A stretch of 64,000 nucleotides of DNA, taken from positions 1 through 64,000 of the forward strand of contig JABXIG010000025.1 in NCBI GenBank assembly GCA_013373205.1, in the 5' to 3' direction. The stretch is from Methylocystaceae bacterium. GTDB lineage: Bacteria; Pseudomonadota; Alphaproteobacteria; Rhodospirillales; Terasakiellaceae. How positions within the stretch are numbered: the first letter of the stretch is position 1; each line of letters opens with the position of its first letter. Below, piece by piece: positions 48,403 through 64,000 of this stretch. The position numbers and the translations under genes were made by a program. The notes beneath the pieces were generated by a model. It saw nothing but the letters and a program-made list of their open reading frames with translations, was not told the DNA's origin and ran no database searches.

Positions 48403-48470
48403 AAATCCTCCCCAGATTAGAAAAGTTCTATATTTATTGTACCTAATATAGATGAAGATTATATGCGACA

Positions 48471-48484
48471 TTGATAATTCGCAA
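48471..48484. promoter_or_regulatory. FNR-like site upstream of the octaheme operon
   Basis: Read on the minus strand it is TTGCG-N4-ATCAA, matching 8 of 10 positions of TTGAT-N4-ATCAA, about 75 bases before the start codon. It fits anaerobic activation of a respiratory reductase. Confidence 0.4.
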
Positions 48485-48514
48485 TGACAAGATAAAAAAA
48501 AGGGTCAAAGTTGC

Positions 48515-50149
48515 TTAGTTCAGCATTTTTATCTGATCAAAAGTCAGGTAATCCATATCTTGATGGGAGATAACAATCAAAGAACGGCCATTTCGTTTTG
48601 CCATGATTTGTTCCATCATATATTTCCCTGTCTCATAATCCAGACCCTCTGTGGGCTCATCCAGAATAAGCACAGGTGCTTTTTTCAAAAGGGCACGTGC
48701 AACGCCAAGCCTGCGAATTTGCCCGCCTGAGAGGTTATATCCTTGTTCCCCAATGTAGGTGCTTAACCTGTCGGGAAGGCTCTCAAGCAAGCTTTTAAGC
48801 TGGCACATCTCCAAGACTTCATTCACATCATCCAGATTACAGGTATCACAGCCCAAATTCAGGTTATTAAGAAAAGAGCCTGAAAAAATATGTGTATGCT
48901 GCGGTGAAATACTGAATGTCGCAACAAGCTGTTGTTCAGTCATGTTTTTGATCGTCTGCCCATTCAGGCTGATTTCACCTTTTTGCACAAAACGATCCCC
49001 AACAAGCAGATCAATCAATGTGCTTTTCCCAATCCCGGAAGGCCCCTTAATCAAAAGCGTCTGGCCTGCCGGCAGTTCAAAATCGAACTTAACCGGGTAA
49101 ATTTGAAAGTCATTAAAACGATATTCCACTTGCTTTAGTGCAAGGTCAGGATAACCCGGATTTTGTTCAGGTTCTTCTGTCTGGTTCTGCGTATCAGGAT
49201 TGACAAAAAAGATCCGTTCAGCCGCTGCTTTATTTTGTGGAATTTGCATTAAAGCCGGGGCAACTTGTGCAATACTTTCAAAACAGGCCAGCGCAAACAT
49301 AGAAACCATAACAAAATCAGCCTGTGTAAGCTGACGTGCCTGCAAAAGATCCGCAGCCAACAAGACTGTCGCGATAAAAGTCAGCTGTGAGATCAGCCAG
49401 ATTGCATTTTTGGTTAACAACCCCACTGTTTCAACACTTTTAAGGATTTTTAGCCGATCAGCGCTATGATCCCTGAAATCCTGCTGTGCCTTTGCCAGAT
49501 TGTTATAAACCATCAACTCGCCCAACCCGTCTAGCAAATCAATGCTCTTTTTCTTCAGGGTTTCAGCCGACACGAAAATATCATTCGCATTCTTTAAAAC
49601 AGCACGAAACGCCAATACCGGAAGCAGAGCCCCGGCAATCACCAAACCGGACACAACCGGCAAAACAATGGTGATGTCATATTTCAGGAGATAAAGAACA
49701 CAGATAAGGGCTGTAAAGAAACTCGCGCATAAAGGCACAAGAACCCGGACATAGAAACCTTGCAGGGATTCAATGTCATATTGGACTCTGCTGGTTAAAT
49801 CCGTGCTATGCAGGCGCTCGACTTGTTCAAGCGGAATTTGGGTATAGTTTTTAAATGTCCGAAGACGCAATGCCCCCAAAAAACGGAACGTGGCTTCATG
49901 TGTCACCAGTCTTTCCACATATCGCCCCACTGTGCGAAAGATCGCACAGCCGCGAATAATTGCTGCTGGTGTGAAATAATTTATACTCGCCCCCGCCAGT
50001 CCCGCAACGCCCATAGCTGTGATAAACCAGGCGGACGTCGCCAAGAGGGCAATATTGGCCAGCATTGTCGCCATGCTCAACAGAACGCCGAGCAGTGCCC
50101 ATCCCCAAAAAGGGCGAAAGAGCTGAAAAAGATATATGAGCTGTTTCAT
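48515..50149 (-). CDS. cydC: Cytochrome bd biogenesis ABC exporter subunit CydC
   Basis: The protein has 544 residues. Six N-terminal transmembrane helices (LLGVLLSMATMLANIALLAT) are fused to an ABC ATPase with Walker A GPSGIGKST, signature LSGGQIRRLGVARA and Walker B VLILDEPTEGLDYETG. CydDC is needed to assemble cytochrome bd by exporting thiols and/or handling haem. It overlaps cydD by 4 bases (ATGA), the usual arrangement. Confidence 0.93.
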   Translation of the reverse strand: MKQLIYLFQLFRPFWGWALLGVLLSMATMLANIALLATSAWFITAMGVAGLAGASINYFTPAAIIRGCAIFRTVGRYVERLVTHEATFRFLGALRLRTFKNYTQIPLEQVERLHSTDLTSRVQYDIESLQGFYVRVLVPLCASFFTALICVLYLLKYDITIVLPVVSGLVIAGALLPVLAFRAVLKNANDIFVSAETLKKKSIDLLDGLGELMVYNNLAKAQQDFRDHSADRLKILKSVETVGLLTKNAIWLISQLTFIATVLLAADLLQARQLTQADFVMVSMFALACFESIAQVAPALMQIPQNKAAAERIFFVNPDTQNQTEEPEQNPGYPDLALKQVEYRFNDFQIYPVKFDFELPAGQTLLIKGPSGIGKSTLIDLLVGDRFVQKGEISLNGQTIKNMTEQQLVATFSISPQHTHIFSGSFLNNLNLGCDTCNLDDVNEVLEMCQLKSLLESLPDRLSTYIGEQGYNLSGGQIRRLGVARALLKKAPVLILDEPTEGLDYETGKYMMEQIMAKRNGRSLIVISHQDMDYLTFDQIKMLN

Positions 50150-51822
50150 GCGACATCCTCTTTTTTAGGCTGTGACAGAATCTGCCCCTGATCCAGATAA
50201 AGCACGCGGTCTGCCATGGCTATAGTCTGCTCGCGATGGGCTGCAATCAGCATGGTTGTCTTTTGCTTTTTCAGCTGTTTTAACTGCTCAAGGATCAACT
50301 GTTCGGTTTCTGAATCAAGGTTGGCAGACGGCTCATCCATAATCATAACCGATGCCTCTTTAATCAACATGCGCGCCATTGCAAGCCTGCGCCCTTCTCC
50401 ACCCGACATCAAACGACCTTGCTCACCCGTTCTTTGCAGCAAGTGATCTGGAAAATGTTCAACCGTTTTGGAAAGATGGACTTTCTCAACTGCAACCCGA
50501 ACGGCCCATTCGTCCTGAAATTCCGGTGCCAGCGCGATGTTATGGGCGATTGTTGTATCGAAAATGTGGGGCTGTTGTGCCATCCATGAAATGTCACGAT
50601 GCCACTGCTTTAACCCGCTTTGACTTAATGTGCTGCCATTTAGATAAATATTACCCGATGTTGGACGCAGAAAGCCAAGCGCAAGATTAAGCAATGTGCT
50701 TTTGCCCGCACCACTTGAACCGACAAGTACAACACATTCGCCCTCTTTAATTTCGAAACTAACATCCGACAAAACAGACTTGCCATCGGGGTATGCATAA
50801 GACACCCCATCAAAAGCGATCTTGGCCTGTGTGGAAATCGGCCGTGTTTCCTGTGGGAAAGCTGGTTCTTCCATATTCAATATTTTGACAATTTCATCCG
50901 CAGCGGCCATGGCTTCCATTTTTACATGATAATTGGTGCCAAGATTTCGCAACGGCTGGTAAAATTCCGGGGCCAAAAGCAAAATCAGAAAACCGTCCTG
51001 AAAAGCCATTTCCCCCGCAAGCAGGCGAAACCCGATAAAGACGGCGATTAAGGCAATCGAAATAGTTGAAAAAAATTCAAGCGTCACTGAAGACAAAAAC
51101 GCGATGCGTAAAACCTTCATGACCTTGGATTTATAGGCCATGGAAATTTCGTTGATGCGTTGCGTTTCTTTTTGCGTTGCCCCAAAAAGCTTAAGCGTCT
51201 GCAATCCTCTTAAACTTTCCTGCAAGCGCGCGCCCAGTCGCCCCAGCGCTTTCCAATGGTTTTGATGAACCTGTTCCGCCCCTTTACCAATCAAAATCAT
51301 AAATAAAGGTATCAAAGGTGCTGTCAGCATGAAAACAAGTGCTGAGATCAAATCCAGTGGCAACACAACAGCAAGAACACAAATCGGAATGAGTGCTACA
51401 TGAAACAATGCGGGTAAAAATGCCGAAAAATACTGGCCGAATTTTTCAATCCCTTCGACCGTCAATGTCGCAAAATGCCCACGTTTTATGGATGCTGTGG
51501 CGCAAGGGCCCAATCTTTCAAGCTTTAAAAGCAACTCATCATACACATGCTGAATAACGTGCTGCCCCAGTTCAACGGCTTTGCGATCACTATATGAATT
51601 TAGAATAAAACGAATAAAAATAATGAATATGACAGGATACACATCCTGCAACACATCAGACAGACCCTGCCCCTCAAAGGCAACAGCCGTCATCAAGCGG
51701 GCCATTAACCAGACCTGCAAAACCAGCAGCATGGCATTTAGGGCCCCCACAACAGTAATCTGTCGGAGCAAACCTTTTAAGGGGCGTTTTTGTTGCCTGA
51801 TAAATTCTTTTGTCTGTGTCAT
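50146..51822 (-). CDS. cydD: Cytochrome bd biogenesis ABC exporter subunit CydD
   Basis: The protein has 558 residues with a six-helix membrane domain and an ATPase: Walker A GSSGAGKST, signature MSGGEGRRLAMARM and Walker B VMIMDEPSANLDSETE. It forms the CydDC heterodimer. GAAGGGAGAGG gives a strong start. A hairpin terminator or attenuator separates it from cydX by about 30 bases, so it is probably expressed at a lower level than cydAB. Confidence 0.93.
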   Translation of the reverse strand: MTQTKEFIRQQKRPLKGLLRQITVVGALNAMLLVLQVWLMARLMTAVAFEGQGLSDVLQDVYPVIFIIFIRFILNSYSDRKAVELGQHVIQHVYDELLLKLERLGPCATASIKRGHFATLTVEGIEKFGQYFSAFLPALFHVALIPICVLAVVLPLDLISALVFMLTAPLIPLFMILIGKGAEQVHQNHWKALGRLGARLQESLRGLQTLKLFGATQKETQRINEISMAYKSKVMKVLRIAFLSSVTLEFFSTISIALIAVFIGFRLLAGEMAFQDGFLILLLAPEFYQPLRNLGTNYHVKMEAMAAADEIVKILNMEEPAFPQETRPISTQAKIAFDGVSYAYPDGKSVLSDVSFEIKEGECVVLVGSSGAGKSTLLNLALGFLRPTSGNIYLNGSTLSQSGLKQWHRDISWMAQQPHIFDTTIAHNIALAPEFQDEWAVRVAVEKVHLSKTVEHFPDHLLQRTGEQGRLMSGGEGRRLAMARMLIKEASVMIMDEPSANLDSETEQLILEQLKQLKKQKTTMLIAAHREQTIAMADRVLYLDQGQILSQPKKEDVA

Positions 51823-51853
51823 GACCTCTCCCTTCTAAAATGTAGATGGAGAA

Positions 51854-51889
51854 AAGGGTGCCTGACCTGAAATCACGCCAGGCACCCTT
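51854..51889 (-). terminator. Terminator/attenuator between cydX and cydD
   Basis: The perfect 11-bp stem AAGGGTGCCTG/CAGGCACCCTT is followed on the minus strand by TTTTCTCC. It probably reduces readthrough from cydABX into cydDC. Confidence 0.75.
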
Positions 51890-51893
51890 GTCT

Positions 51894-52004
51894 TCAGTCT
51901 TTTTTGTCTTTGTCAAAGGCCATTTCAGCCTCATACCAAAGCGCGTTGATGATACCGATTGACAGGGCGGCAGTCAGTCCCAGGCCCCATGCGAAATACC
52001 ACAT
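51894..52004 (-). CDS. cydX: Cytochrome bd small subunit CydX
   Basis: The protein has 36 residues. It starts MWYFAWGLGLTAALSIGIIN, the MWYFAW opening diagnostic of CydX/YbgT, with one transmembrane helix and a charged tail (DKDKKD). CydX stabilises the cytochrome bd complex. It lies 22 bases after cydB, with GGAG upstream of the ATG. Confidence 0.9.
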   Translation of the reverse strand: MWYFAWGLGLTAALSIGIINALWYEAEMAFDKDKKD

Positions 52005-52026
52005 GATTAATCTCCTTTTCTATTGG

Positions 52027-53181
52027 TTAGTAGGCAGAATGACTGCGCACTTTAATTTCATCGACCGTGACTTTCCCCCACATGCGGTAGTAACACCACA
52101 CGGTGTAGGTCAGAACAATCGGCAAGAAAATGACAGTCGCCCAGAACATAACGGTAAGCGTAAGATGACTAGATGCAGCATCCCACACAGTCAGGCTTGA
52201 ATTTGGTTGAATGCTGGATGGCATAATGAAGGGGAACATAGACAGACCCGCTGTCCCGATAATCCCTGTCATGCCGATACCACTGGTCACAAAGCCCAGT
52301 CCCGGCTTGCCCCATTTAGAGAATAACATGGTCAAAGCAATCCCCGCAAAACCAGCCAATGGGGCCAGAATAGCAATAGGGAGTGTGTCATACACCTTGA
52401 GCCATGCACCGGCTTCAACAATAACTTCTTTTGCCAATGGGTTTGGCAGCGCATCGGTTGGAGGTTGCTGCACAATGACATAACCATCAATTCCGTAAGC
52501 AACCCAGACACCAGCCAAGGCAAAACAGACTGCCGCAATCGTCCCCATAACCATCACCGCTTTTGAGGCTCTGGATGCAATCGGGTCTTCAGTTCTCATT
52601 TGAAGCCAGATGCCGCCATGCATGGTCAGCATGGAAAAGCTGATCACACCCGCCAACAAGGCAAACGGATTAAGCAAAGGCAAAAGAGCCGTCAGCAGTG
52701 AGCCATGATAATGCGCACGCAGCAATTCATCCAAATGGAAAGGAACCCCTTGAAGCAAGTTACCAAAGGCAACACCGAAAATAAGTGACGGAATGGCACC
52801 ACCGGCAAACAGCCCCCAGTCCCATGCGTTTCTCCAGCGCGCATCACCTAGTTTTGATCGATAGTCAAACCCGACAGGCCTGAAGAACAAAGCAAACAGC
52901 ACCAACAGCATCGCCATATAGAAGCCAGAAAAAGCAGCTGCATATACCGCAGGCCAAGCCGCAAAGATCGCCCCGCCAGCAGTGATAAACCAGACCTGGT
53001 TTCCGTCCCAGTGCGGGCCGACTGTGTTAATAATGACGCGGCGTTCTTCATCAGATTTTCCGACAAATGGCAACAGGTTTCCAACACCCATGTCCATACC
53101 ATCGGTTACAGCAAAACCAATCAGCAAGGCCCCGACAAGGATCCACCAGACAAGTTTCAGGATTTCATATTCGAGTATCAT
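52027..53181 (-). CDS. cydB: Cytochrome bd ubiquinol oxidase subunit II, CydB
   Basis: The protein has 384 residues with about eight to nine transmembrane segments. Family hallmarks are WWILVGALLIGFAVTDGMDM, VGPHWDGNQVWFITAGGAIF and FRPVGFDYRSK. It partners CydA in the high-affinity quinol oxidase. GAGGAGG precedes the ATG and 12 bases separate it from cydA. Confidence 0.95.
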   Translation of the reverse strand: MILEYEILKLVWWILVGALLIGFAVTDGMDMGVGNLLPFVGKSDEERRVIINTVGPHWDGNQVWFITAGGAIFAAWPAVYAAAFSGFYMAMLLVLFALFFRPVGFDYRSKLGDARWRNAWDWGLFAGGAIPSLIFGVAFGNLLQGVPFHLDELLRAHYHGSLLTALLPLLNPFALLAGVISFSMLTMHGGIWLQMRTEDPIASRASKAVMVMGTIAAVCFALAGVWVAYGIDGYVIVQQPPTDALPNPLAKEVIVEAGAWLKVYDTLPIAILAPLAGFAGIALTMLFSKWGKPGLGFVTSGIGMTGIIGTAGLSMFPFIMPSSIQPNSSLTVWDAASSHLTLTVMFWATVIFLPIVLTYTVWCYYRMWGKVTVDEIKVRSHSAY

Positions 53182-53193
53182 AATAACCTCCTC

Positions 53194-54756
53194 TTACTCT
53201 GCTGGTTGGGCTGTTTCGCCGTAATATTTACCGGTGTGCAGAGATGCCGGACCTTTACGAGCAAATTTAAACATGAGGTACATTTCGATACACAAAAGGA
53301 AGGTATAGAAAGTAATGAACCCAACGAGTGAGAAGATCAGATCCCCGGTTGTGAGCGAAGATGTCGCCAGTGACGTTGGCAGAATTTCACCAATCGCCCA
53401 GGGTTGACGTCCATATTCAGCCACAAACCAACCCATTTCACAGGCAAGCCACGGCATTGGGATTGACCAAAGCAAGGCCTTTAACAGCCAACGTTGTTCG
53501 TGAATATTACGCTTGATCGTGAAATAGAAGGTTGCGGCAAACAGCCCCAACATGGCAAAGCCCAACGCCACCATAAAGCGGAAAGACCAGAACAACGGAG
53601 CGACAGCAGGAATTGTATCTTCCACAGCCAAGGCAATTTGCTCTTCTGTCGCATCAACCACATTTGGTGTATAGGTTTTCAGCAAAAGCCCATAGCCAAG
53701 GTCGACTTTATGTTCTTCGAATTTTGCCATGACTGCTTCAGATTTATCGCCTTTGCGGATTTTCTGTAACTCGCCATAAGCGATCATACCTGAACGGATA
53801 CGTTCTTCATGTTGGATCTTCAAATCCTTGATGCCGGTCACTTGCTTGTCAACAGAACGCGTCGCAATCAAACCAAGCGCATAAGGAATTTGAACCGCAT
53901 ATTCGGTTTCCATTGTTTCATCATTGGGGAAGCCAAAGGCGGTAAATGCGGCAGGGGCTGGTTCCGTTTCATATTCTGCTTCAATCGCGGCCAATTTCAC
54001 TTTTTGAACATCGCCAAGTTCATAGCCACTTTCATCACCTAACACGATGACGGATAGAGATGCAGCCAAACCAAAGCCACAGGCAATCGCCATAGAACGT
54101 TTGGCAAAACCCATGTCGCGCCCTTTAAGCAGGTAATAGGCACTGATCCCCATCACAAACATGGAAGCTGTTACATAACCCGCTGCCACCGTATGGACGA
54201 ATTTAACTTGCGCAACCGGGTTCAGCACGATTTCTGCAAAACTGGTCATTTCCATACGCATGGTTTCGGGTGAAAATTCAGAACCGATCGGGTTCTGCAT
54301 CCAGCCATTGGCAACCAAAATCCACATGGCAGACAAGTTGGACCCAAAGGCGGTGAAGAAAGTCACCATCAGGTGTTGACGTTTGCTCAGTTTATCCCAG
54401 CCTAAGAAGAACAGACCGATAAAGGTTGATTCAAGGAAGAAGGCCATCAGACCCTCAATCGCAAGCGGGGCACCAAAAACATCACCCACATAATGAGAAT
54501 AATAAGACCAGTTGGTTCCGAATTCGAATTCCATGGTCAGCCCTGTGGTGACACCAAGGGCAAAGTTGATCCCAAAAAGTTTACCCCAGAATTTTGTCAT
54601 ATCCCGGTAAACTTCGTTATTTGTCATCACGTAACAAGATTCCATGATGAACAGTATCCACGATATCCCAAGTGTAAGCGGGACAAAAAGAAAGTGGTAC
54701 ATTGCTGTCGCAGCAAACTGCCAGCGCGACAATTCGATAAATGTTTGGTCGAACAT
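53194..54756 (-). CDS. cydA: Cytochrome bd ubiquinol oxidase subunit I, CydA
   Basis: The protein has 520 residues. His19-type haem ligand region [20 protein letters not shown] and the long Q-loop ([20 protein letters not shown], then [16 protein letters not shown] with HEERIRSG) mark the E. coli-like long-loop class. The C-terminal part has [19 protein letters not shown]. It reduces oxygen to water with quinol at low oxygen. GGAG is well placed. It is the third gene of an FNR-box-controlled operon. Confidence 0.95.
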
Positions 54757-54801
54757 TGAATGGCTCCATTAGCCAAAAATTAAGAAAAAATGTAATTTTG
54801 A

Positions 54802-54816
54802 ACCTGTCAGACAGGT
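54802..54816. terminator. Small palindrome at the end of the DUF2946-like gene
   Basis: ACCTGT-CAG-ACAGGT overlaps the stop codon and is followed on the minus strand by an AT-rich run. It could be a weak terminator or an operator for cydA. Confidence 0.3.
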
Positions 54817-55220
54817 GTTCTTAATTCTGGTGGAGCTCTTGGTGCTTGCTTAACAACACTTAAACACTTTGGAACCCAGCATATATCAAAATCGGGCCTA
54901 TTCAGTTCGGGAAGAGAAACCTGAATAACGTCCAGTATTTGTTCAGATTGTAAGAAGGGGGCATCTGTATGAAAGAAAGACACATAACAATCGTCACAGA
55001 TAAAATTACCCGTATGTTCAATTGAAGATGTGCCTCTTTCCCGGTTTCCAAAGCAAATACTTTCGCGAAGCTCGGCAACAAAAGCATGTTCTTGCGCTTC
55101 TTCATGCGACAACGCGAATATTGGGAAAATATTCTGAAAAACCAGCGCGATCAACAGAACCGCGCAAATATCCGGCTTTATAAGTCTTATCAGTTTTTTA
55201 TAGGGGGAAAAGCCTGACAT
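54807..55220 (-). CDS. DUF2946-like protein
   Basis: The protein has 137 residues. One N-terminal membrane helix (ICAVLLIALVFQNIFPIFAL) is followed by a periplasmic tail with a CDDCY motif, two further cysteines and the APRAPPELRTPV ending typical of DUF2946 proteins. That family is often found near copper or respiratory genes; its function is unknown. It is the second gene of the FNR-controlled operon, 12 bases after the NifX-like gene and 50 bases before cydA. A metal-related role in oxidase assembly is possible (inference). Confidence 0.65.
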   Translation of the reverse strand: MSGFSPYKKLIRLIKPDICAVLLIALVFQNIFPIFALSHEEAQEHAFVAELRESICFGNRERGTSSIEHTGNFICDDCYVSFFHTDAPFLQSEQILDVIQVSLPELNRPDFDICWVPKCLSVVKQAPRAPPELRTPV

Positions 55221-55232
55221 CGACCTGGTCCT

Positions 55233-55556
55233 TTAAGATGCTTCTTTTAGCTGGAGATACTCACGAATGGCATCTTCAGGCAGTTCCAGGTCGGTTTTAT
55301 GGACATCCACATTGAAAGACGCCATCCGGTTTTTAAAGTTCTCACCACAACTTCCCACAATCAATGCATCCATCAAGTAAATCGGATGATCCACGTCTCT
55401 GCTGACTTCATGCAGGGACATATCTTTGGGGAGGTCGAGTCTGTTAACTTCTGAAAATTGACCCTTTTCATCAACTTTAAACACCAAAAAGCGTCTTGTC
55501 TTCGCGGCGTGTTTCGTAACCGTTTTGAAGTTCTGGCTTGTAAGGGCGATTAACAT
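55233..55556 (-). CDS. NifX/NifB-type dinitrogenase-cofactor-domain protein
   Basis: The protein has 107 residues. The small alpha/beta domain of the FeMo-cofactor-binding family is recognised from MLIALTSQNFKTVTKHAAKT, RRFLVFKVDEKG and LMDALIVGSCGENF. Stand-alone members bind metal clusters or act as carriers; no nitrogenase gene is in the window. It is the first gene after a perfect FNR box, upstream of DUF2946 and cydABX, so it is probably induced at low oxygen. Confidence 0.75.
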   Translation of the reverse strand: MLIALTSQNFKTVTKHAAKTRRFLVFKVDEKGQFSEVNRLDLPKDMSLHEVSRDVDHPIYLMDALIVGSCGENFKNRMASFNVDVHKTDLELPEDAIREYLQLKEAS

Positions 55557-55618
55557 GTCTAAAGACCTTTTAAATTATTATTGTGACCAGAACTTAAAGA
55601 AATTCTAATATAGAGGCA

Positions 55619-55632
55619 TTGATATTTATCAA
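55619..55632. promoter_or_regulatory. Perfect FNR/FnrL box before the cyd operon
   Basis: TTGAT-ATTT-ATCAA matches the consensus at all ten positions. The centre is 69 bases before the ATG of the NifX-like gene, a distance that allows an activating position near -41. Confidence 0.8.
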
Positions 55633-55721
55633 TGGCCCCAATTTCAAAAACTGCCCGCGCGCTTATTTAAATGATCACAAAACGTATAACTTATTTAAAA
55701 TAAAAACAAATTATACTCAAC

Positions 55722-55760
55722 AAAAAAGGCGGGCCGATGAAAATCAGCTCGCCTTTTTTT
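55722..55760. terminator. Bidirectional-type terminator after the CobN-like gene
   Basis: AAAAAAGGCGGGC and GCTCGCCTTTTTTT form a 13-bp stem with one G-T pair; the A and T runs make it work on the minus strand, 20 bases after the CobN-like stop. Confidence 0.85.
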
Positions 55761-55779
55761 CGCTAACAATATTCAAGCC

Positions 55780-58700
55780 TTAGTCCGAAAAAGACAGCAT
55801 TGAACGTCGGAAATATCTGGGTGCAACCTGTTGCCAGACAACACCGGCAAGGAAGAACGCAAGGATCAGAGCGAAGAGATAATATTTAGTCATATCATCT
55901 TCGATTTCTGTTGTTTGTTCCACTTTTGCCAGTTTTTGACCCTCAACCTGTTCAGCTGCCGGATTGGCTGAAGGTTGCGGGATATTGATCGTTGGCAATT
56001 CTACAGGTGTGACATCCGGTTTGGACAATCCATAGCCTTTTGCCAATTGCTCAACATAGTCTTTGAACTTTTCATTATCACTGACCACGTCATATTTCGC
56101 CTGCATTTCCTGATAGGTTTCCACCAGCTTTTTCATCGTTTCATCATTCGGCTTCCAATAGTCTTTGCGAATAACTTCCAGCATGCGTTCCGCAATCTGC
56201 GCAAGCGCTTCCGGGTTGCTTTTTTCAAACCACTCTTTCATATCCAGTTCAAGCTTATCATTGACGTAAACTTCAAAGAATTCCTGCCATTGATCTGCAC
56301 GGACATTTTGCGGGTCCACAACCTGCCAGCCGGTAAAGTTATTGATGGTATCAATGATATTAAGCGCCCCGGCATAGCCTTCATCCTGCATAGCCTTGAC
56401 CCAACGCGGATGGAAATAACGCGTGCGCAGCTCTTTTGACATAAAGCTGTTCAGGCTTTCCATTTTCCCCTGATTGGGATCACGCAAGTTGGAAATTGCC
56501 ATTTCGGGACTTTTACCATCCAGATTACGCACGGCCAGCGAAAGCCCACCAAGATACTGGAACGGATCATCCGACGCCAGCATACCAAACACATTGGAAG
56601 AACGTGAGAAAAGCGCCACATCTGTACCGGACAGGTTTTTGGCATAAAGCTGTGCTGCTTCATTCTTTTCGTTCCAACGCTTTGGATCCTTGCCAAATGC
56701 ATAGCCCATCCGGTCCATATAAAGTCCGGCAAGTTTGGAATCATTTTCCCATGTATCCGTTGCCAAAACCGTATCGCCAAGGCCGGAACCATAAGTCCCT
56801 GATTGTGCAGAAAAAATTCGAACCGTAGAAAGATAATCTGCCTCTTTCGGATTGACCCCATCGGCTTCAAGGGTTTTTGCTATTTTTTGGGCATTGAGAT
56901 AAACATTGTTGCCTTCTTCTTTAAGGCGTGCAACTTCGTCAATGGCTTCTGCCAGCAATTTCATCACACCGGGGAAAGCATCGCGATACAACCCTGTTGC
57001 CGAAAGAACAACATCAACGCGCGGACGTTTTAAGTCAGAAAACGGTATAATCTCTGTCCCCACCACGCGACCACTATCAGCCCATTTGGGTTTAACGCCC
57101 AGTGCATACATGGCTTGGGCCTCCAAGACACCGTGATGGCGCATGGCTTCCATAGACCAAAGCGAAAAGGCAAGCTTGTCTGGGTATCTCCCATGTTTGG
57201 TGTAATACTCATTGATCAGATCGGTCACCAGTTGTTTGCCCGTTTCCCACGCCGCTTGGGTGGGTAAACGCGATGGATCAAAACCATAAAGGTTACGACC
57301 TGTGGGCAGTGTTTCATCATTACGAACCGGATCACCGCCTGTCGAAGGTTCAATGAAGCGCCCGTTCAGCGCCAGAACCATACTCTTTAACTCGAGAATA
57401 CCTTTCATGCGCTGCCCGATTTCAACCGCACGCTCCAAATGAGCCCGCAGTTCATCAGAAGCATCTTGTGGGATCGGCTGTTGTTTAATCAAAACATCAT
57501 GAAGTTCCTTAAAACCAATAATGTTTTCCAGTTGGGTTTCTTCCCCAAACAAACCGTCCTTGCCCAGTTCACCATGACCATGATCAACTTCTTCTTCATC
57601 AAACCCCAGATAGGTATACACATCTGTGAGATAGTCTTTCCCTAGGATTTGCATAACGGTCGTTGTCATGAGGCGATCTACAGGCAATTTACCAAATGTG
57701 TGCAGACCAAGAGGCTGGTTTTCCAGTGCAAGTTCATGCAGATAGTCATGCAGAACAACCAAGAATTCATCAAAGCGTTGTTCCATCCCCTCAGCCGTCC
57801 ATCCAAGGTCTTTCGGGATATTTAACTTCTTCACTTTGCTGATCAGCTGCTCCTTGTTTTTCTCGCGCACCTGACCGGGGTCAACCTGTTGATAATGGTG
57901 AATTAATTCATGAACTTCCGTTAGCTCCCGATAAAGGCCACTTGGGGCAAACGGGGGTGTCATATGACTAATCATTGTCGCACGCCCGCGACGTTTGGCC
58001 TGAAGGGCTTCGCCCACATCATCGACAATATAAGGATAAATAATCGGCACATCATCCGCCGTTAGTATCCCCGGGTCAAAGGCCCAAAGCCCGCGTTCCT
58101 TGCCGGGCAACCATTCATGTGTGCCATGCGTGCCGAGATGGATAATCGCATCTGCTGCAAAATTTTTCCGAACATAATAATAAACGGCAAGATAGAAGTG
58201 GTTCACGGGGATGGCTTTATTGTGATAAAGCGTTTTCTCTTTATCATTTTTATCCCCGCGCGGCGGCTGTGGAAGAACCATCAAATTGCCCGAATTCATC
58301 ATCGGTATGACGAACTGTTTCTGACCATCAATGTCAGTAACCATGAAATGATCATCCGGCTGGCCCCAATAGTCATTCACCTGTTGTTGAACAGTTTCAG
58401 GTAACGTCTGAAACCATGCTTTATAGTCCGCAACACTTAATGTTTTGCCAAATCCTTTATCATATATTGTTTTGGGTGATTCTTCGCGATAGAGCGGGCG
58501 TTGCAGGTTTGCTATCGCATCAATCATCAGCTGTTCTTTGATAACATAATTATTGTAGCCTTCCTTTTTCATCAAAGACGAGATGCTTTCTACACTTGTT
58601 GGTACATTGAGGAAAGAGGATTGCGCACTGCGTTCACCCGGGGGGTAATTGTAATAAAAAAGGGCAACTTTTTTATCCTTGTTCGGCTTGTGCGCAAGGT

Positions 58701-59790
58701 TTGCCAGACGCACAGCTTTGCGCACGGTCTGATCCACCTGTTCTGCAATCGGGTGATATCGGCCATCTTCTTTATCAATTGCACCGATGACCAAAGGATC
58801 TACCATCCCCGCCATCTCAGGAATTGTGATGTAAAAAGGTATGCCTGAACCGGGAATACCGCCATTATCTGCGCGCCATTCCTGTTCACTGCGTTTATCA
58901 CGCACCGTATTCACAACGGAAACACCAAGCTTGGTAAAGAGTTCCCTATGTTCATCCGCCCAGTGAATAATCCGCGCATTAATCAAGCTATCCGCAACTG
59001 ATTGCCCATCCTTCATAAGCCAATCAGCCATTTGTGAGACTGAATCGCCATTGGCATAATAAAATGGCATAGCAATCGCCCCTGCTTTGGCAAGTCGATC
59101 AATCATATCATCAATGACAAGCAGATCTTCGCTGGCAATGCTGGCGCGTTGTACGATGATCCCGACAATGGGGGCGTCACTATTCTGGGGATACTGTTCT
59201 TTGTACCAGTTCAGATACGCCTGTGGTGTTTCAAAAATTTCATCTGATTGAGGGTGATAAACACCTTGTTTAGGATAGATAATCGCGGGTTCAACAGCAA
59301 CATTTTCTGCAAAAAACTCTGAACGAATATAGGTAAACAAACGTTCAAAGTTTTTACGTCCCCCATTGTAATAATAGTCTTTCAGCTTGGTTGATTGGTC
59401 CAAAGAAACATCTTTATGCAGGCCCCGACCTTCTGGCCACATAAGCGTGCTGATTTTGACATTCGGTTTGACCGCTGCCAGTTTCCCCTGAAGGAAACCA
59501 AAACCTCTTTTTGTTTGCCCAACACTGACGCCATCTAAAAGGACCAAATCATACTGACTAAAGACCATCGCCCAATCGGTTTGTGCCGGATAGGATTCAA
59601 GCTTTTTTTGTTGAAGGTCAACACCTTGGTCCTTCGCAATTTTTCCAATCAGCTTTGATTTGGCCTGATTGACGTGACCTGCTGACAACATTAAAATCGA
59701 AGCTGCATTTGGTGTGTTTGCCTGTGCAGGCATAAGCGTTGCACCCATCAGATAAAATGCGACAAATAAACTGGTGATGATGTGCCTCAT
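55780..59790 (-). CDS. Exported, membrane-anchored CobN-like chelatase (HmuS-type)
   Basis: The protein has 1336 residues. It has the CobN/BchH large-subunit fold with the conserved IIHLGTHGTHEWLPGKERGL block, NVFGMLASDDPFQYLGG and FSLWSMEAMRHHGVLEAQAM. Unlike cytoplasmic CobN it has a signal peptide (1-24, ending MPAQA) and a C-terminal helix (YYLFALILAFFLAGVVW) followed by basic residues, so the catalytic part is periplasmic. No CobS/CobT or ChlI/ChlD partner is nearby. It overlaps the DUF2149 gene (ATGA) and ends an operon with a TonB receptor and a proton-channel protein. In Bacteroidota this layout belongs to HmuS, reported to remove iron from haem (recalled from the literature). Substrate here is unproven. 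Confidence 0.88.
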   Translation of the reverse strand: MRHIITSLFVAFYLMGATLMPAQANTPNAASILMLSAGHVNQAKSKLIGKIAKDQGVDLQQKKLESYPAQTDWAMVFSQYDLVLLDGVSVGQTKRGFGFLQGKLAAVKPNVKISTLMWPEGRGLHKDVSLDQSTKLKDYYYNGGRKNFERLFTYIRSEFFAENVAVEPAIIYPKQGVYHPQSDEIFETPQAYLNWYKEQYPQNSDAPIVGIIVQRASIASEDLLVIDDMIDRLAKAGAIAMPFYYANGDSVSQMADWLMKDGQSVADSLINARIIHWADEHRELFTKLGVSVVNTVRDKRSEQEWRADNGGIPGSGIPFYITIPEMAGMVDPLVIGAIDKEDGRYHPIAEQVDQTVRKAVRLANLAHKPNKDKKVALFYYNYPPGERSAQSSFLNVPTSVESISSLMKKEGYNNYVIKEQLMIDAIANLQRPLYREESPKTIYDKGFGKTLSVADYKAWFQTLPETVQQQVNDYWGQPDDHFMVTDIDGQKQFVIPMMNSGNLMVLPQPPRGDKNDKEKTLYHNKAIPVNHFYLAVYYYVRKNFAADAIIHLGTHGTHEWLPGKERGLWAFDPGILTADDVPIIYPYIVDDVGEALQAKRRGRATMISHMTPPFAPSGLYRELTEVHELIHHYQQVDPGQVREKNKEQLISKVKKLNIPKDLGWTAEGMEQRFDEFLVVLHDYLHELALENQPLGLHTFGKLPVDRLMTTTVMQILGKDYLTDVYTYLGFDEEEVDHGHGELGKDGLFGEETQLENIIGFKELHDVLIKQQPIPQDASDELRAHLERAVEIGQRMKGILELKSMVLALNGRFIEPSTGGDPVRNDETLPTGRNLYGFDPSRLPTQAAWETGKQLVTDLINEYYTKHGRYPDKLAFSLWSMEAMRHHGVLEAQAMYALGVKPKWADSGRVVGTEIIPFSDLKRPRVDVVLSATGLYRDAFPGVMKLLAEAIDEVARLKEEGNNVYLNAQKIAKTLEADGVNPKEADYLSTVRIFSAQSGTYGSGLGDTVLATDTWENDSKLAGLYMDRMGYAFGKDPKRWNEKNEAAQLYAKNLSGTDVALFSRSSNVFGMLASDDPFQYLGGLSLAVRNLDGKSPEMAISNLRDPNQGKMESLNSFMSKELRTRYFHPRWVKAMQDEGYAGALNIIDTINNFTGWQVVDPQNVRADQWQEFFEVYVNDKLELDMKEWFEKSNPEALAQIAERMLEVIRKDYWKPNDETMKKLVETYQEMQAKYDVVSDNEKFKDYVEQLAKGYGLSKPDVTPVELPTINIPQPSANPAAEQVEGQKLAKVEQTTEIEDDMTKYYLFALILAFFLAGVVWQQVAPRYFRRSMLSFSD

Positions 59791-60116
59791 TTCGGGGCCT
59801 CCCCTTCTTTTTCACCTTCGGGAACATAGACGATGGACCCATCTTCCATGCGATACGCCACACCTGCTTTGATGCCGTTCCCTTGTCCAATCTGACCGTC
59901 GGATTCGTATTTTTCGATTTTCTCGCCCTTCTTGATCATCATCTCCATATTCTTCTTGCCGGGATTTTTAATCACGATCACATCTTCATCCTGAAACGGA
60001 TTTAACGGATTTTGGGCAATAAAAATCAAAAGCGCGGCGATGATGACCAAAAACAAATCAACGAGGTTCACCACCGATAACATCGGGTTATTTGATTCAT
60101 CTTCCTCAAGCAACAT
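59787..60116 (-). CDS. DUF2149 single-helix membrane protein
   Basis: The protein has 109 residues from the ATG at 60116 (GAGG 6 bases upstream); 60128 is an alternative start with a poorer site. NPMLSVVNLVDLFLVIIAAL is the DUF2149 core and its only transmembrane helix, with a conserved Asp inside, as in ExbD/MotB-type proteins. A charged periplasmic domain (about 40-109) follows. It overlaps both neighbours. It probably pairs with the MotA/TolQ-like protein to energise the CobN-like protein (inference). Confidence 0.82.
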   Translation of the reverse strand: MLLEEDESNNPMLSVVNLVDLFLVIIAALLIFIAQNPLNPFQDEDVIVIKNPGKKNMEMMIKKGEKIEKYESDGQIGQGNGIKAGVAYRMEDGSIVYVPEGEKEGEAPK

Positions 60117-60681
60117 CTGCGGCCTCATTTTTCAAAATAACAGACGGCTTGAACTCATGAACATTTGTCTCGCGCCAGTGTTCAACGAAACGGATGTCGC
60201 GGATCAGCCATTGTTTTTTCACACTCTGAATCCAGAACGTCAGACTGGCAGCCAAAAGGGCAAAAATAACCGATGTAAAAGCAATAATCAGATTTTCACT
60301 GATCCCCTGAACATTGCCATTAGCCAATGATTTCAAGGCGGGTCCCATCGGGATCATAGTTGCAACCAATCCCAACATCGGGGCAATACGGGTCGTGATG
60401 CGCAGGAAATCCAACTCTTTTGATGCCGCAAGTTCCAGATCTTCACGGGAAATACAGGGGTTGGTGGAAAACAGGGCAAGAATTGAATGCCCATGAATAG
60501 AGGACATATCTTCGGGTGCTTCGACTTTGTGTAGTTTTGAAGACCCTAGTTTTCGTTGACCATATTGCATAACGAATTCGCCCAAGGCGAAAATCGAATA
60601 GGCAAAAAGAATAACGACACCGATTTGTACGGGAAGCAGGAAGAAGTTTGATAATTCATAAAGATAGCTGTCAAGTGACAT
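60106..60681 (-). CDS. MotA/TolQ/ExbB-type proton channel protein
   Basis: The protein has 191 residues with three transmembrane helices (QIGVVILFAYSIFALGEFVM, TRIAPMLGLVATMIPMGPAL and IIAFTSVIFALLAASLTFWI). The helix 2-3 region has the family's Pro/Thr/Ala-rich channel segment. It differs from the ExbB encoded divergently at 62969, so the locus has two such channels. GAGG lies 8 bases before the ATG. It is encoded between the TonB receptor and DUF2149. Confidence 0.85.
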   Translation of the reverse strand: MSLDSYLYELSNFFLLPVQIGVVILFAYSIFALGEFVMQYGQRKLGSSKLHKVEAPEDMSSIHGHSILALFSTNPCISREDLELAASKELDFLRITTRIAPMLGLVATMIPMGPALKSLANGNVQGISENLIIAFTSVIFALLAASLTFWIQSVKKQWLIRDIRFVEHWRETNVHEFKPSVILKNEAADVA

Positions 60682-60713
60682 AAAAAGATCCTCGTCTGAT
60701 TAAATCGGAAAAA

Positions 60714-60744
60714 GCGCATGCCTTATCAAAAACAAGACATGCGC
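60714..60744 (-). terminator. Hairpin after the TonB receptor gene
   Basis: GCGCATG/CATGCGC arms with a 17-base loop are followed on the minus strand by TTTTTCC. It could attenuate transcription into the inner-membrane genes. Confidence 0.5.
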
Positions 60745-60774
60745 AAACCCGATTATTAGGGGGAGTATTCGGGA

Positions 60775-62700
60775 TTAGAATGAGGCGCGCAAACCAACAA
60801 AGACAAAACGACCACGTTCTTCCTGTGCCCCAAAGTCTGCGTCTTTACTCGCCAGTCGAGTGTCGAAAATATTCGTCATACCAAAACGAGCTTCAAAGGT
60901 TTCATTCAAGGGTTTTACGAAAGTCAAATCAACGAGTGAGTAACCCGGCACAGACTCTTCTTCACCTTCTGCCATGTACTGACGGCCAACATATTCAACA
61001 TTAAAGGTCGATCTTAAATCCCATGGGGCGTAAGTGTGGGTCAGGCCAAGGTTACCGAAAAGCTTCGGACGTTGAGACAGTTCCTTGCCGTCATTGTCAC
61101 CGTCTTCGGTCTTCATTGCCGTCATATTGAAAGAAGCATCGAGACTTTCCAGCAATGGATAAGAAGCTTCAAATTCAAGCCCCATTGTCTTGGCTGTACT
61201 GACATTCGAATACTGCTTGGTCGTGCCTGTGATATCTTTCGTGTTAATCAGGTTTTTAATATTGTTATAGAAAGCACCTGTGCGTAGCTGTGCTGTCCCA
61301 TTGTTATAAGCCCAATTCAGTTCGAAGTTATCGCTTGTTTCCGGCTTGAGGTCTGAGTTCCCGAGATAAGTACTACCGTGAGACACCGAATTATAGGCAT
61401 CAGACCCTTCTGTGATGCTCGGCGCTTTAAAGCCATGCCCATAACCGAAGCCAACCGTATGGTCATCATTCAAATCATAGCTGATATAGGCTTTCGGGCT
61501 TAGCTCGCCACTGAAGTTTTCATGATGGTCATAACGCAAACCCAACGTCACGGTCAGCGTATCTTCCACCATAGAGGTTTCATTTTGAAGGAAAAGAGAG
61601 TTGTAATGAACGCGATCACTGAAGTCACTTGATGAAGGTCGATCATATTCTTTGCGATATTCTTCGGACCGATGTTCCAACCCACCAATCAAGCGGTTGT
61701 TTTCATTCAGGTCCGTCACCGCATCAACAGAATAGATCCAATCTGTCAGATTGTGGGTATAAGGGTTGCCAGAATCGACAAATTTATTTGCAGAATGCGT
61801 TCTGTAGACTTTTGCATCCAGTTCAATATCTGAAATCGTGCCTTTGTAGCCCACTCCACCAAGGTTATTTTTGATTTCATAATAAGGATCATCGCGGAAA
61901 CGTTTATCATAACCTTGGTTATAATCTATGGAAACCTGATGGTTTTCAGTAATGCCATAGCTTAGATTTGTTGTGAAGTTATGAGCTCTGCTGCCTTCCA
62001 TTTCAAGAGTAGGCCAACCCTGATCTTTATCAGCTGTCGCTTTGACCTCGCCTGTTTCTGCGCCAATGCGGAATTTTAATTGATCGCTGATCGGACCAGC
62101 AAGTGAGGCGCTATATCGGCGTTCCTGCCCACCGTTCGCATCTGTTTCATCCCCGTAAAAAGCATCAACCGTTGCCGAAAATTCCTTACCTGCTTTCCTT
62201 GTGACCACATTGACCACACCTGCCATACCGGCAGAGCCATAAAGGCTCGACATGGGACCACGGATAATTTCGATCCGTTCAATCGTGTCCATCGGCACAG
62301 AGCTGAGCTGGAAGTTAGAGTGGCTAATCTGAGAATCCGTACCCGTCAGACGTTTGCCATCAACCAACATCAGAACATGGTCACTTTGCATACCCCGAAT
62401 TTGGATAGACTTGCGCCCACCGACCGAATTGCTGTTTGACCCAACTGTAATGCCAGCCGTGCGACGAATGGCTTCAAAGACGTCTTTGGCGCCGGATGCA
62501 CGAATTTCATCTGCAGTCACAACGGAAATCGAGCCCTGCACATCTTCAACAGCGACTTGAGTTTTTGTGACAGAGACCTGTAAAGGCGCAAGATTCTGTT
62601 CTTCTGCGGATGCAGAAACAGTCATCGCACATGTTCCAGCCGCAATAGCCAGACATAACTTAAGGTTATTATTAAATGGGGAGGATGGATTAAAATTCAC
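60775..62700 (-). CDS. TonB-dependent outer-membrane receptor
   Basis: The protein has 641 residues from a GTG start (AAGGATATCACC upstream). Signal peptide (1-32, ending SASAE), a TonB-box-like LQVSVTKT, a plug domain (VQGSISVVTADEIRASGAKD, IQIRGMQSDHVLMLVDGKRL, IERIEIIRGPMSSLYGSAGM) and a 22-strand barrel ending in FVGLRASF. GHGFKAPSITEG and NSDLKPETSDNFELN correspond to the FRAP- and NPNL-like boxes seen in haem and siderophore receptors. It is the first gene of the CobN-like operon, behind Fur-like sites. Confidence 0.92.
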   Translation of the reverse strand: MNFNPSSPFNNNLKLCLAIAAGTCAMTVSASAEEQNLAPLQVSVTKTQVAVEDVQGSISVVTADEIRASGAKDVFEAIRRTAGITVGSNSNSVGGRKSIQIRGMQSDHVLMLVDGKRLTGTDSQISHSNFQLSSVPMDTIERIEIIRGPMSSLYGSAGMAGVVNVVTRKAGKEFSATVDAFYGDETDANGGQERRYSASLAGPISDQLKFRIGAETGEVKATADKDQGWPTLEMEGSRAHNFTTNLSYGITENHQVSIDYNQGYDKRFRDDPYYEIKNNLGGVGYKGTISDIELDAKVYRTHSANKFVDSGNPYTHNLTDWIYSVDAVTDLNENNRLIGGLEHRSEEYRKEYDRPSSSDFSDRVHYNSLFLQNETSMVEDTLTVTLGLRYDHHENFSGELSPKAYISYDLNDDHTVGFGYGHGFKAPSITEGSDAYNSVSHGSTYLGNSDLKPETSDNFELNWAYNNGTAQLRTGAFYNNIKNLINTKDITGTTKQYSNVSTAKTMGLEFEASYPLLESLDASFNMTAMKTEDGDNDGKELSQRPKLFGNLGLTHTYAPWDLRSTFNVEYVGRQYMAEGEEESVPGYSLVDLTFVKPLNETFEARFGMTNIFDTRLASKDADFGAQEERGRFVFVGLRASF

Positions 62701-62803
62701 GGTGATATCCTTATTTTTCCTTGGCGCGCCTCAGTCAAATAGAATGAGAAATAGCCAAAACGGTTAAAACTTTTACCCACTCATACACACAAAATATTTA
62801 TAT

Positions 62804-62824
62804 TGCAAATAAGAATCGTTTGCA
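62804..62824. promoter_or_regulatory. Fur-like site near the TonB receptor promoter
   Basis: It has TGCAAA/TTTGCA arms around TAAGAATCG, like alphaproteobacterial iron-responsive boxes. It lies 104-124 bases before the receptor start. Confidence 0.6.
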
Positions 62825-62920
62825 TTATATGCTTAGGAAGCTGTGAGCTCATTGGAAAGCCAAGGAAATTTATAAATGTGGTTAGTCGGAAGCGATGTGA
62901 GTGATGAGTTCGCGGAAGAT

Positions 62921-62939
62921 AATAAGAGTCATTCTTATT
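62921..62939. promoter_or_regulatory. Fur-like site near the exbB promoter
   Basis: AATAAGA-GTCAT-TCTTATT is a perfect 7-bp inverted repeat 30-48 bases before the exbB ATG, overlapping the expected promoter. With the site at 62804 it suggests iron control of both directions. Confidence 0.6.
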
Positions 62940-62968
62940 TGCAATAACTTTTTTCTAGAGGTTAGAAA

Positions 62969-63688
62969 ATGGATTCACAGCTACTTTTTAAAAATGCAAG
63001 CAATGGGTTAATTAATCTTTTTTCACTAATCATGGAATCAGGTGGCCCGGTCATGTTTGTCTTGCTTGGCATGTCCGTGCTGGGCAGTGTTGTGATTGTG
63101 TTAAAGGTTGGACAATTCTTTCATTTAAAAATTTCGTCCTTCAAAGAAATCCGCCTTGCAATCAACGCCTATCGCAAGAACCAAATTGCGATTGCGCAAA
63201 AGACGCTGCAAAAGACGCGAAACCCGGCCTCTGAAATCGTGCATGTTATCATCATGGGCCAACAAAGCGGCGCCCCCGTTGAAATGATAAAAGAAGAAGC
63301 CCAAAGAATGGGCAACCTTATGCTGGCAAGCCTGCGAAAACATTTCAGAACTTTGGAAATAATTGGCACCCTAAGCCCCTTGCTTGGTCTTTTGGGGACG
63401 GTGCTTGGTATTATTGATGCCTTTCACCAATTGGAATTGGCTGGCAGTAAAGTCGACATCAGCCAACTGTCTGGAGGGATTTGGGTTGCTTTGCTGACAA
63501 CCGCTGCAGGGCTTTCAGTCGGTATTCCAGCCGTCATTGCCCTGAATTGGCTGGAATCAAAAACCGAAGATACCGCCCAGCAAATGGAAGATGTGGCAAC
63601 CCAGTTGTTCACGCATGAAGTCTATCCATCAACGGAAAAGGAAGAGGTCGTATGCAACTCGTTTCGCAGCGTCAGCCAAAGCGCCTGA
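62969..63688 (+). CDS. exbB: ExbB-type energy-transduction protein
   Basis: The protein has 239 residues with three transmembrane helices (GGPVMFVLLGMSVLGSVVIV, LEIIGTLSPLLGLLGTVLGI and GIWVALLTTAAGLSVGIPAV). The TLSPLLGLLGTVLGI segment is the ExbB signature. With ExbD and TonB it powers outer-membrane receptors. AGAGG precedes the ATG. It overlaps exbD by 37 bases and is divergent from the receptor operon. Confidence 0.9.
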   Translation: MDSQLLFKNASNGLINLFSLIMESGGPVMFVLLGMSVLGSVVIVLKVGQFFHLKISSFKEIRLAINAYRKNQIAIAQKTLQKTRNPASEIVHVIIMGQQSGAPVEMIKEEAQRMGNLMLASLRKHFRTLEIIGTLSPLLGLLGTVLGIIDAFHQLELAGSKVDISQLSGGIWVALLTTAAGLSVGIPAVIALNWLESKTEDTAQQMEDVATQLFTHEVYPSTEKEEVVCNSFRSVSQSA

Positions 63689-64000
63689 TCAGTCTGACAC
63701 CGTTAATTGATGTTGTTTTTATCCTGCTAGTGTTCTTCATGATTTCATCGAACTTCGTTGAATGGAAACGCCTTCCGGTACAAAGCACGCAACAAGGGGC
63801 CTCTGCGGGCACAAGCAAGAATAACCTGCTGATTGTCATAACAGAGCGCCATCTCAAAATAAACGACGCGGTTGTCAGTCGTGGCGATATTAAGGAACGA
63901 TTGGATACATTGGCGCAAAGATCCCCCGTTCAGGTTTTCTTACGCGCCGAAAAAAATATTGATCTGCAACGCACCGTTCAAGTCATTGACTGGCTGGGCC
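63652..64000 (+). CDS. exbD: ExbD-type energy-transduction protein (partial)
   Basis: The frame runs from the ATG at 63652 to the window end, about 116 residues. LISLTPLIDVVFILLVFFMI is the single ExbD helix with the essential Asp. A periplasmic domain follows (FLRAEKNIDLQRTVQVIDWL). GAAGAGG stands before the ATG. A tonB gene probably lies just beyond the window (inference). Confidence 0.9.
   Translation, partial: MQLVSQRQPKRLISLTPLIDVVFILLVFFMISSNFVEWKRLPVQSTQQGASAGTSKNNLLIVITERHLKINDAVVSRGDIKERLDTLAQRSPVQVFLRAEKNIDLQRTVQVIDWLG

Follow-up and report, generated by a model that had tools for sequence, protein, structure and literature searches.

Does an alphaproteobacterium release iron from imported haem in its periplasm? 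Periplasmic haem dechelation has been published for Bacteroidota and is known from gut and mouth Bacteroidota; here the question is raised by a locus in the first 64,000 nucleotides of contig JABXIG010000025.1 (C39) of a Methylocystaceae bacterium (assembly GCA_013373205.1), a stretch that is called the window throughout. Four closely packed genes encode a TonB-dependent receptor, a MotA/TolQ/ExbB-type protein, a DUF2149 protein and a CobN-like protein, and share a promoter region with a divergent haem-import operon. The reading that we favour, with some reserve, is that of a haem-iron locus under Fur-type, iron-repressed control, in which haem is imported and its iron released in the periplasm by the CobN-like protein, with the MotA-like and DUF2149 proteins as its partner.

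Genes of the locus and its divergent haem importer

All four genes were confirmed on the minus strand by the listing of open reading frames (ORFs), and their domains were assigned with Pfam. The receptor gene (60775..62700) has a GTG start and encodes a CirA-like protein of 641 amino acids (aa; Plug 97 bits, TonB barrel 176.7 bits). It is followed after 93 bp by the gene for the MotA/TolQ/ExbB-type protein, HmuU in the Bacteroidota naming (60106..60681; 191 aa; MotA_ExbB 27.1 bits, cut-off 22.9), then, with an overlap of 23 bp, by that for the DUF2149 protein, HmuV in the same naming (59787..60128; 113 aa with one transmembrane segment; DUF2149 99.7 bits), and, with an overlap of 4 bp, by that for the BtuS/HmuS-like exported chelatase (55780..59790; 1336 aa; CobN-Mg_chel, PF02514, 1061 bits). 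A hydropathy scan, rather than a dedicated predictor, shows the latter protein to have a signal-peptide-type hydrophobic stretch at its N-terminus and, beginning near residue 1305, a hydrophobic segment at its C-terminus, and in this it shares the character of the HmuS family, that of an exported, membrane-anchored class I chelatase. ORFs, Pfam and hydropathy agree in this with an earlier note on the same DNA, which had described the four genes and both end segments of the 1336-aa protein.

On the plus strand, exbB (62969..63688; ORF listing, Pfam) opens the divergent operon, whose order is exbB, exbD, exbD2, tonB, hemS, hmuT, hmuU, hmuV; exbD (63652..64000 in the window; Pfam) extends on the contig continuation to C39:64035, and the operon ends past the window edge at C39:69065. 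HemS scores 219 bits with Pfam and HmuV 305.7 bits against a cut-off of 261 for the curated heme-ABC-ATPase model. The HemS-HmuTUV haem import system of Pseudomonadota is hence present at the locus, and the genome also encodes FeoB.

HemS is present in three of the six genomes of the genus. The haem locus of two other genomes of the genus (L072, L073; loci carry L numbers) consists of a receptor that differs from that of the window, a 252-aa protein that is TonB-like, weakly, in L073 only, HemS, ExbB, ExbD, HmuT, HmuU (78 and 83% identical to the copy of the window species) and HmuV. No CobN-like gene was found in the fetched stretches of these two loci, and one of the two genomes (G434) has canonical CobN only. 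Three same-genus genomes searched for both families have one CobN-family gene each and no DUF2149, and the only DUF2149 gene among 60 sampled genomes of the order is in the genome of the window. Since the other genomes of the genus that were examined lack it and DUF2149 occurs in one of 60 in the order, the CobN module is an accessory of the haem locus of this species. No full-length homologue of the genus's usual haem receptor was found in the window's genome, which holds three partial matches of 25-28% identity.

Promoter region and predicted control

In the 268-base intergenic region, GCAAATAAGAAT occurs twice, once per strand (62805-62816 and 62942-62931). Motif scanning delimits two Fur-like boxes: box 1, GCAAATAAGAATCGTTTGC, on the plus strand (62805..62823), closer to the receptor gene, and box 2 on the minus strand (62918..62942), containing GCAAATAAGAAT at 62942-62931, just upstream of exbB. 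The pattern GCAAATRAGAAT is expected 0.02 times in the window, with none of 100 shuffles reaching two copies; over the whole genome of 4.09 Mb it has four copies and the reversed control pattern two. This rarity is not a clean test, as the pattern was picked after the sequence had been read. Two of the four genome copies lie in the shared promoter, one inside an ORF, and one ahead of an imelysin gene, between it and a di-haem peroxidase gene, with two ferritin-like genes near.

Scored against the Fur consensus, the best match in the promoter was 14/19 (p 0.025 versus 200 letter shuffles). The best Zur match was 8/12 (p 0.88), so that no Zur box of the PA1922-PA1925 type is seen, and no riboswitch or any other Rfam match was found in window positions 48000-64000. 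The combination of a Fur-type box with haem transport genes that marks Fur-controlled haem uptake loci is present at the sequence level, and from these putative boxes the control of the locus is probably of the Fur type and iron-repressed.

Linkage and relatives in other genomes

Of 385 alphaproteobacterial genomes, nine have DUF2149 at E 0.001, and seven of these exceed the cut-off; it was also found in 17 of 398 sampled Pseudomonadota genomes, the two samples overlapping, and in 53 of the 246 genomes of one gammaproteobacterial family, from which 20 loci were fetched. The linkage count covers 55 DUF2149 loci, not including L012/L032 and L013/L033, two hits that score under the Pfam cut-off. 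At 54 of these loci DUF2149 has a MotA-like gene no more than 1.5 kb away, and at 51 a CobN-like gene no more than 10 kb away; 11 of the 55 were found via CobN and are not independent, and CobN is present in 40 of the 44 others (window included). The loci lacking a CobN-like gene are L022, L026 (contig edge), L028 (CobN fragment off contig) and L119, where the MotA-DUF2149 pair has no CobN-like neighbour up to 10 kb away. Given these frequencies, 54/55 and 51/55, the linkage is not due to chance. Absence of the linkage from relatives was one of two results that the earlier note had named as refuting it; the linkage recurs, and to this extent the note stands. The uniqueness that it implied does not, as a related set, PA1922-PA1925, is in print (PMC4542158) and DUF2149 occurs in the 17 Pseudomonadota genomes mentioned.

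Nine operons have the five-part order receptor-HmuY-MotA-DUF2149-CobN (8 of the 20 fetched loci and L061; L061, L122, L130-L135, L137). HmuY passes the Pfam cut-off in all nine, a Fur-like match is found in seven at p <=0.06, a line set after the values were seen, and there is no HemS/HmuTUV match among the neighbouring genes shown. Eight of the other 12 fetched loci have a receptor divergent from MotA-DUF2149(-CobN), the CobN of L129 being a fragment at a contig end. The L060 receptor, the only one of this type scanned, passes both curated heme/haemoglobin receptor cut-offs, and six receptors of the type group with the genus's haem receptors (99, receptor tree). True HmuS proteins, sharing 44-45% identity with that of Aureibacter, occur in two gammaproteobacterial genomes (L118, L127) together with HmuU- and HmuV-type genes, and L136 holds CobN-MotA-DUF2149 with no receptor match among the genes shown. 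After the CobN gene of the HmuY locus L132 (13752-17537) lies an ABC importer made up of binding protein, permease and ATPase, and a similar binding protein occurs in another HmuY locus, L137 (3148-4173); by inspection these resembled an importer of iron ions, which would have favoured iron release, but they were set aside because no model was matched over its cut-off.

HmuS and HmuV homologues have been listed in Proteobacteria, with complete operons reported only in Bacteroidetes (PMC10100974). A title and abstract search, with most subscription journals outside its reach, found no haem-linked CobN/MotA/DUF2149 locus in Alpha- or Gammaproteobacteria. Should the haem-iron reading hold, oxygen-independent haem-iron release would be a broader trait, with an alphaproteobacterial version and nine five-part HmuY loci in Gammaproteobacteria.

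Kinship of the CobN-like protein

The CobN-like protein scores 1363 bits with NCBIfam NF004644 (cut-off 1248), whose name, 'cobaltochelatase subunit CobN', is taken as a family label only, and among PDB sequences it matches HmuS best (9d26, 452.9 bits), with lower scores for Mycobacterium CobN (399) and ChlH (374). Trees were built from 42 and 60 CobN-family rows (L063 and L088 in neither, L133_b not in the second), and topology tests were run on 28 rows with groups named after the first trees had been seen. In both trees the window protein falls among exported, MotA/DUF2149-linked proteins, apart from an 8-row cytosolic CobN clade (100); in the second it belongs to a 21-row clade (100) with the proteins of the HmuY operons and divergent-receptor loci, its nearest row being L122 (45% identity). 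Joint clades with cytosolic CobN were rejected for the window protein alone (p-AU 0.000192), for its 7-row clade (2.67e-29) and for the 14-row exported Pseudomonadota set (0.00159), which bears out the earlier note in treating the protein as an exported relative distinct from cytosolic CobN. B12 genes or a B12 riboswitch, by which a cytosolic CobN locus would be recognized, were likewise not found, there being no Rfam match in 48000-64000 and the neighbours being cyd and haem genes. The second CobN of this genome (L001), on another contig, is canonical and groups with Sinorhizobium CobN.

Because a clade of the window protein and three HmuS rows alone was rejected (p-AU 2.08e-5), a grouping that leaves the window's kin outside, the protein appears not to be nested in HmuS by the sequences compared. 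A clade of HmuS with the 14 exported Pseudomonadota rows was not rejected (p-AU 0.119), and the two branches may have a common origin.

Several known systems invite comparison. The locus resembles Bacteroidota hmuYRSTUV (PMC12583661, PMC6460266, PMC10100974) in its TonB receptor, exported CobN relative anchored at both ends, MotA/ExbB-type and DUF2149 partners, iron control (predicted here) and HxGTHG motif, but differs in lacking an HmuY or HmuT-type gene beside R, S, U and V, in being coupled to a classic HemS-HmuTUV importer and in having H1127 in place of HmuS Asn1261; the absence of HmuY follows from Pfam scans of the neighbours, and that of Bacteroidota HmuT, which has no Pfam family, from an ORF layout with no further ORF of its size. 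The gammaproteobacterial HmuY operons have the nearest CobN kin and the same D/H residue pattern, yet carry HmuY and a receptor of another subgroup. Pseudomonas aeruginosa PA1922-PA1925, likened by its published description, also joins a TonB receptor, CobN-like and proton-channel-type genes in one metal-regulated operon; in contrast to the window, it is Zur-controlled through Zur sites and responds to zinc starvation (PMC4542158, PMC8456098). BtuS proteins have been proposed as a third kind of CobN for metalloporphyrin salvage, with a need for FeoAB to take up the released iron (PMC6460266). Cytosolic CobN and BchH/ChlH belong to the same superfamily (PF02514), but fall in other clades and lack terminal membrane segments in the rows scanned. 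These cytosolic enzymes work with AAA+ partners.

Candidate metal ligands

HmuS strips iron from haem; its His538 and His1209 surround the bound cation, Glu1212 is bonded to His1209, and the H538A variant is reported to be inactive (PMC12583661). The window protein keeps the first of these residues as H555, within an HLGTHG sequence at 551-556 that agrees with the HFG(T/A)HG motif, although the His of this motif is common to the superfamily and so is weak evidence for membership in HmuS. In the window protein H1127 stands where HmuS (Asn1261), CobN and BchH rows have Asn.

The columns of HmuS 1209, 1212 and 1261 were read over 63 rows. D,Q,H is found in 22 rows, that of the window among them; 10 rows have H,E,N, five of these being HmuS and the other five alphaproteobacterial; seven have D,E,H, all belonging to HmuY loci; the two BchH rows have H,D,N; and L003 alone has H,E,H. 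The other 21, mostly canonical CobN and rows linked to B12 or hyp, share Asn at 1261 and lack His at 1209. In L133, two different CobN-like genes stand in tandem in one HmuY locus, one D,Q,H and the other D,E,H. Fur-like matches at the same p <=0.06 line were found in 16 of 26 promoters of D/H-type loci (11 of 26 at 0.05) and Zur matches at 0.06 in none, in a count made without L065 and L066; L118, whose row is a placeholder stretch, and L127, whose region lies inside its operon, were left out of the promoter counts. Where an exported protein other than HmuS has His at 1209, a Zur match was found at three of six loci (L029, L030, L064, of which L030 and L064 are near-copies) and a Fur match at none. 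Enzymes linked by promoter to iron or zinc, and the magnesium enzyme, thus seem to keep a His at 1209 or 1261 and the cobalt type at neither, a pattern that is a lead and not proof, some D/H rows (L017, L065, L066, L136) being without a known regulator. The natural swap would offer a direct test of how chelatases hold and release metal.

Weighing the haem-iron reading

Haem is the likeliest substrate of the locus, and is favoured over a corrinoid because of the divergent HemS-HmuTUV genes, the common Fur-like boxes and the HmuY-linked nearest relatives; the earlier note, which had proposed metallo-tetrapyrrole import with haem, a corrinoid or another tetrapyrrole as substrate, is narrowed in this direction. 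From the genes, export signals, linkage, Fur-like boxes and kinship observed we infer a substrate, a direction of reaction, ligand roles and an energy coupling as follows. Haem or a haem-like iron tetrapyrrole would enter the periplasm through the receptor (60775-62700), powered by ExbB-ExbD-TonB of the divergent operon. It could pass intact through HmuT-HmuUV to HemS in the cytosol; alternatively, the membrane-anchored CobN-like protein could bind it in the periplasm, with the metal held by H555 and by H1127 or D1075, the ring would be protonated and the freed iron imported by FeoB. The MotA/DUF2149 pair would be a dedicated proton-channel partner that drives or resets the chelatase and replaces the AAA+ proteins CobST/ChlID.

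A number of observations weigh against this course of events. The LSLDHxxEFMGG motif with His1209 and Glu1212 is absent, the window having LASDDPFQYLGG with D1075 and Q1078, a pair that resembles cobalt CobN, and Met79 and His254, of the head/neck haem site, are replaced by V and I in those columns. The His swap between columns rests on few events, four changes at one site and two at the other, and an independent-pairs test was not significant and without power. The receptor is CirA-like, and for none of the 25 models shown, out of 30 that it matched, does its score reach the cut-off (TonB-hemin 205 versus 317); the receptor tree joins it to receptors from Zur-box loci in a clade of seven rows (99), and Pfam scans of the neighbours place no HmuY gene beside it. 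Similarity of the DUF2149 and ExbD profiles is weak (hhalign 15% probability, 31 columns), the AlphaFold model of the DUF2149 protein is poor (pLDDT 60.8), and a periplasmic dechelatase is not indispensable to a host that already has HmuTUV and HemS. Finally, haem turnover has been reported for recombinant HmuS by itself (PMC12583661), from which it follows that this homologue of the window protein does not strictly depend on HmuU/HmuV in vitro.

Some of these features vary within HmuS itself. Aureibacter HmuS is also without Met79. The methionine-rich insertion of domain IV is absent from the window protein, with at most 4 Met per 60 residues versus 18 in the Prevotella protein, and with 7 and 5 Met, B. 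finegoldii and Aureibacter HmuS are likewise without a large insertion. H276 of the window stands two columns beyond that of His254 and is kept in the 21 rows related to the window, with one mismatch and two gaps tolerated. Between the FKAP and NSDL motifs of the receptor, the loop contains a His, at what we take to be the position that holds the haem ligand His in known haem receptors. This loop His (between FxAP and NPDL) is present in the window, L015b, L057, haem-type and nine HmuY-type receptors and absent from L029, L030, L064, the second receptor of L003 and L062; it is an imperfect marker, missing from the Prevotella and Bacteroides HmuR rows and present in the B12-linked receptor L018b.

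Taken together, the protein most likely strips iron from haem and appears HmuS-like in its working, but by its defining residues it is not a member of HmuS. The label 'HmuS-type' given in the earlier note accordingly finds no support in the sense of belonging to that family: Met79, His254 and His1209/Glu1212 are absent and a clade of the window protein with HmuS alone is rejected, though the wider joint clade is not.

Role of the MotA/DUF2149 pair

The pair is more likely than not to couple the proton motive force to the chelatase, as the earlier note proposed in place of an AAA+ partner, a view with which the linkage agrees. Three residues of the MotA-like protein (P101, G104, T108) are invariant with four ExbB proteins, and the DUF2149 transmembrane segment has a nearly invariant Asp. 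It is possible, though doubtful, that the pair energises only the TonB receptor and the chelatase runs alone, a division of labour that is compatible with haem as substrate. This is the published proposal for HmuU/HmuV in Bacteroides (PMC10100974), and the reported activity of recombinant HmuS alone agrees with it (PMC12583661), while the P. gingivalis authors did not exclude an effect of HmuT, HmuU and HmuV on HmuS activity (PMC13227078). The window locus, however, has its own ExbB-ExbD-ExbD-TonB set, and the 21-kb stretch of L017 has MotA and DUF2149 after CobN but no gene for a receptor. The DUF2149 and CobN families are also both present in the genome of the archaeon Methanosarcina acetivorans (adjacency there was not seen), which has no outer membrane. 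In M. barkeri two BtuS proteins are reported, with the whole Bacteroides operon absent (PMC10846266). The separate TonB-ExbB-ExbD set at the window locus would provide a clean way to ask if it is the chelatase, rather than the receptor, that MotA/DUF2149 power.

Alternative substrates and functions

The CobN-like protein could instead be a relay that takes haem over from the receptor and passes it to HmuT for intact import, its chelatase fold binding the ring without dechelation. Genes for HmuT-HmuU-HmuV and HemS lie in the adjoining operon, the HmuS catalytic pair is incomplete in the window protein, and HmuS itself holds a non-substrate haem at its head/neck site (PMC12583661). We consider this unlikely, as H555, the essential residue in HmuS, is kept, a dedicated proton channel is less well explained by a relay, and in eight HmuY loci no HemS/HmuTUV match occurs among the genes shown, which indicates that the protein functions where no such importer is near.

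It also appears improbable that the receptor imports a siderophore-type ferric chelate from which the CobN-like protein frees iron, haem entering only by the divergent operon. The best receptor matches are CirA-like and the receptor groups with those of loci under other metal control; set against this, HmuY or a haem receptor is encoded in the loci of the nearest relatives, and the window receptor has the loop His at the haem-ligand position, a residue that two Bacteroidota HmuR rows lack. CobN and ChlH, moreover, act on tetrapyrroles. The same is reported for HmuS (PMC12583661).

A cobalt corrinoid or a Ni or Zn tetrapyrrole is a very improbable substrate: relatives adjoin B12 riboswitches, a hyp cluster (L019) or nikR (L016) or have Zur matches (L029, L030, L064), the Asp/Gln pair is CobN-like and PA1922-PA1925 is zinc-responsive (PMC4542158), but the zinc reading after that operon is rejected for the window by the missing Zur match (p 0.88, against 0.025 for Fur), and the cobalt/B12 reading by the absence of a riboswitch in 48000-64000 and by the B12- and hyp-linked rows having Asn at 1261 and lying outside the window's clade.

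Returning to haem-iron release, a more general view can be put forward tentatively, namely that CobN-like proteins with MotA/DUF2149 may form a class of periplasmic metal strippers for metallo-tetrapyrroles driven by the proton motive force. In such a class the metal would be set by the regulator (iron by Fur, zinc by Zur, cobalt or nickel by a B12 riboswitch or NikR/hyp), the second ligand His would have moved between HmuS 1209 and 1261, and the window would represent the branch for iron and haem, joined to a haem importer of the classic kind.

Other observations on related and neighbouring genes

CobN-MotA-DUF2149 sets occur in stretches with B12 riboswitches in L018, L056, L028, L031, L067, L068, L070 and L071 (L056 also with CbiK and CbiZ), which suggests a cobalt branch of the same machine. 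A set in Azospirillum brasilense (L016) lies near nikR and a B12 riboswitch, a related CobN locus of Runella (L019) lies inside a hyp hydrogenase cluster, and L029 and L027 have a CobW-type GTPase gene nearby.

Base composition gives no signal of foreign DNA, GC being 0.43-0.49 over 44000-64000. After the CobN-like gene of the window, a 107-aa protein (55233-55556) has a weak Nitro_FeMo-Co (NifX-type) domain (27.4 bits versus a cut-off of 26.3) and might bind a released cofactor, and a 137-aa protein (54807-55220), for which Pfam gave no match, contains a CDDC sequence and a hydrophobic stretch. On the strand of the CobN operon and immediately downstream of it lie cydDC and cydAB (48515-54756), named from ORF reading as a bd oxidase and its ABC exporter. 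About 4 kb past the haem operon, at C39:73182-78199 (L024), are genes of a Hox-type NiFe hydrogenase, the large subunit of which was confirmed by Pfam.

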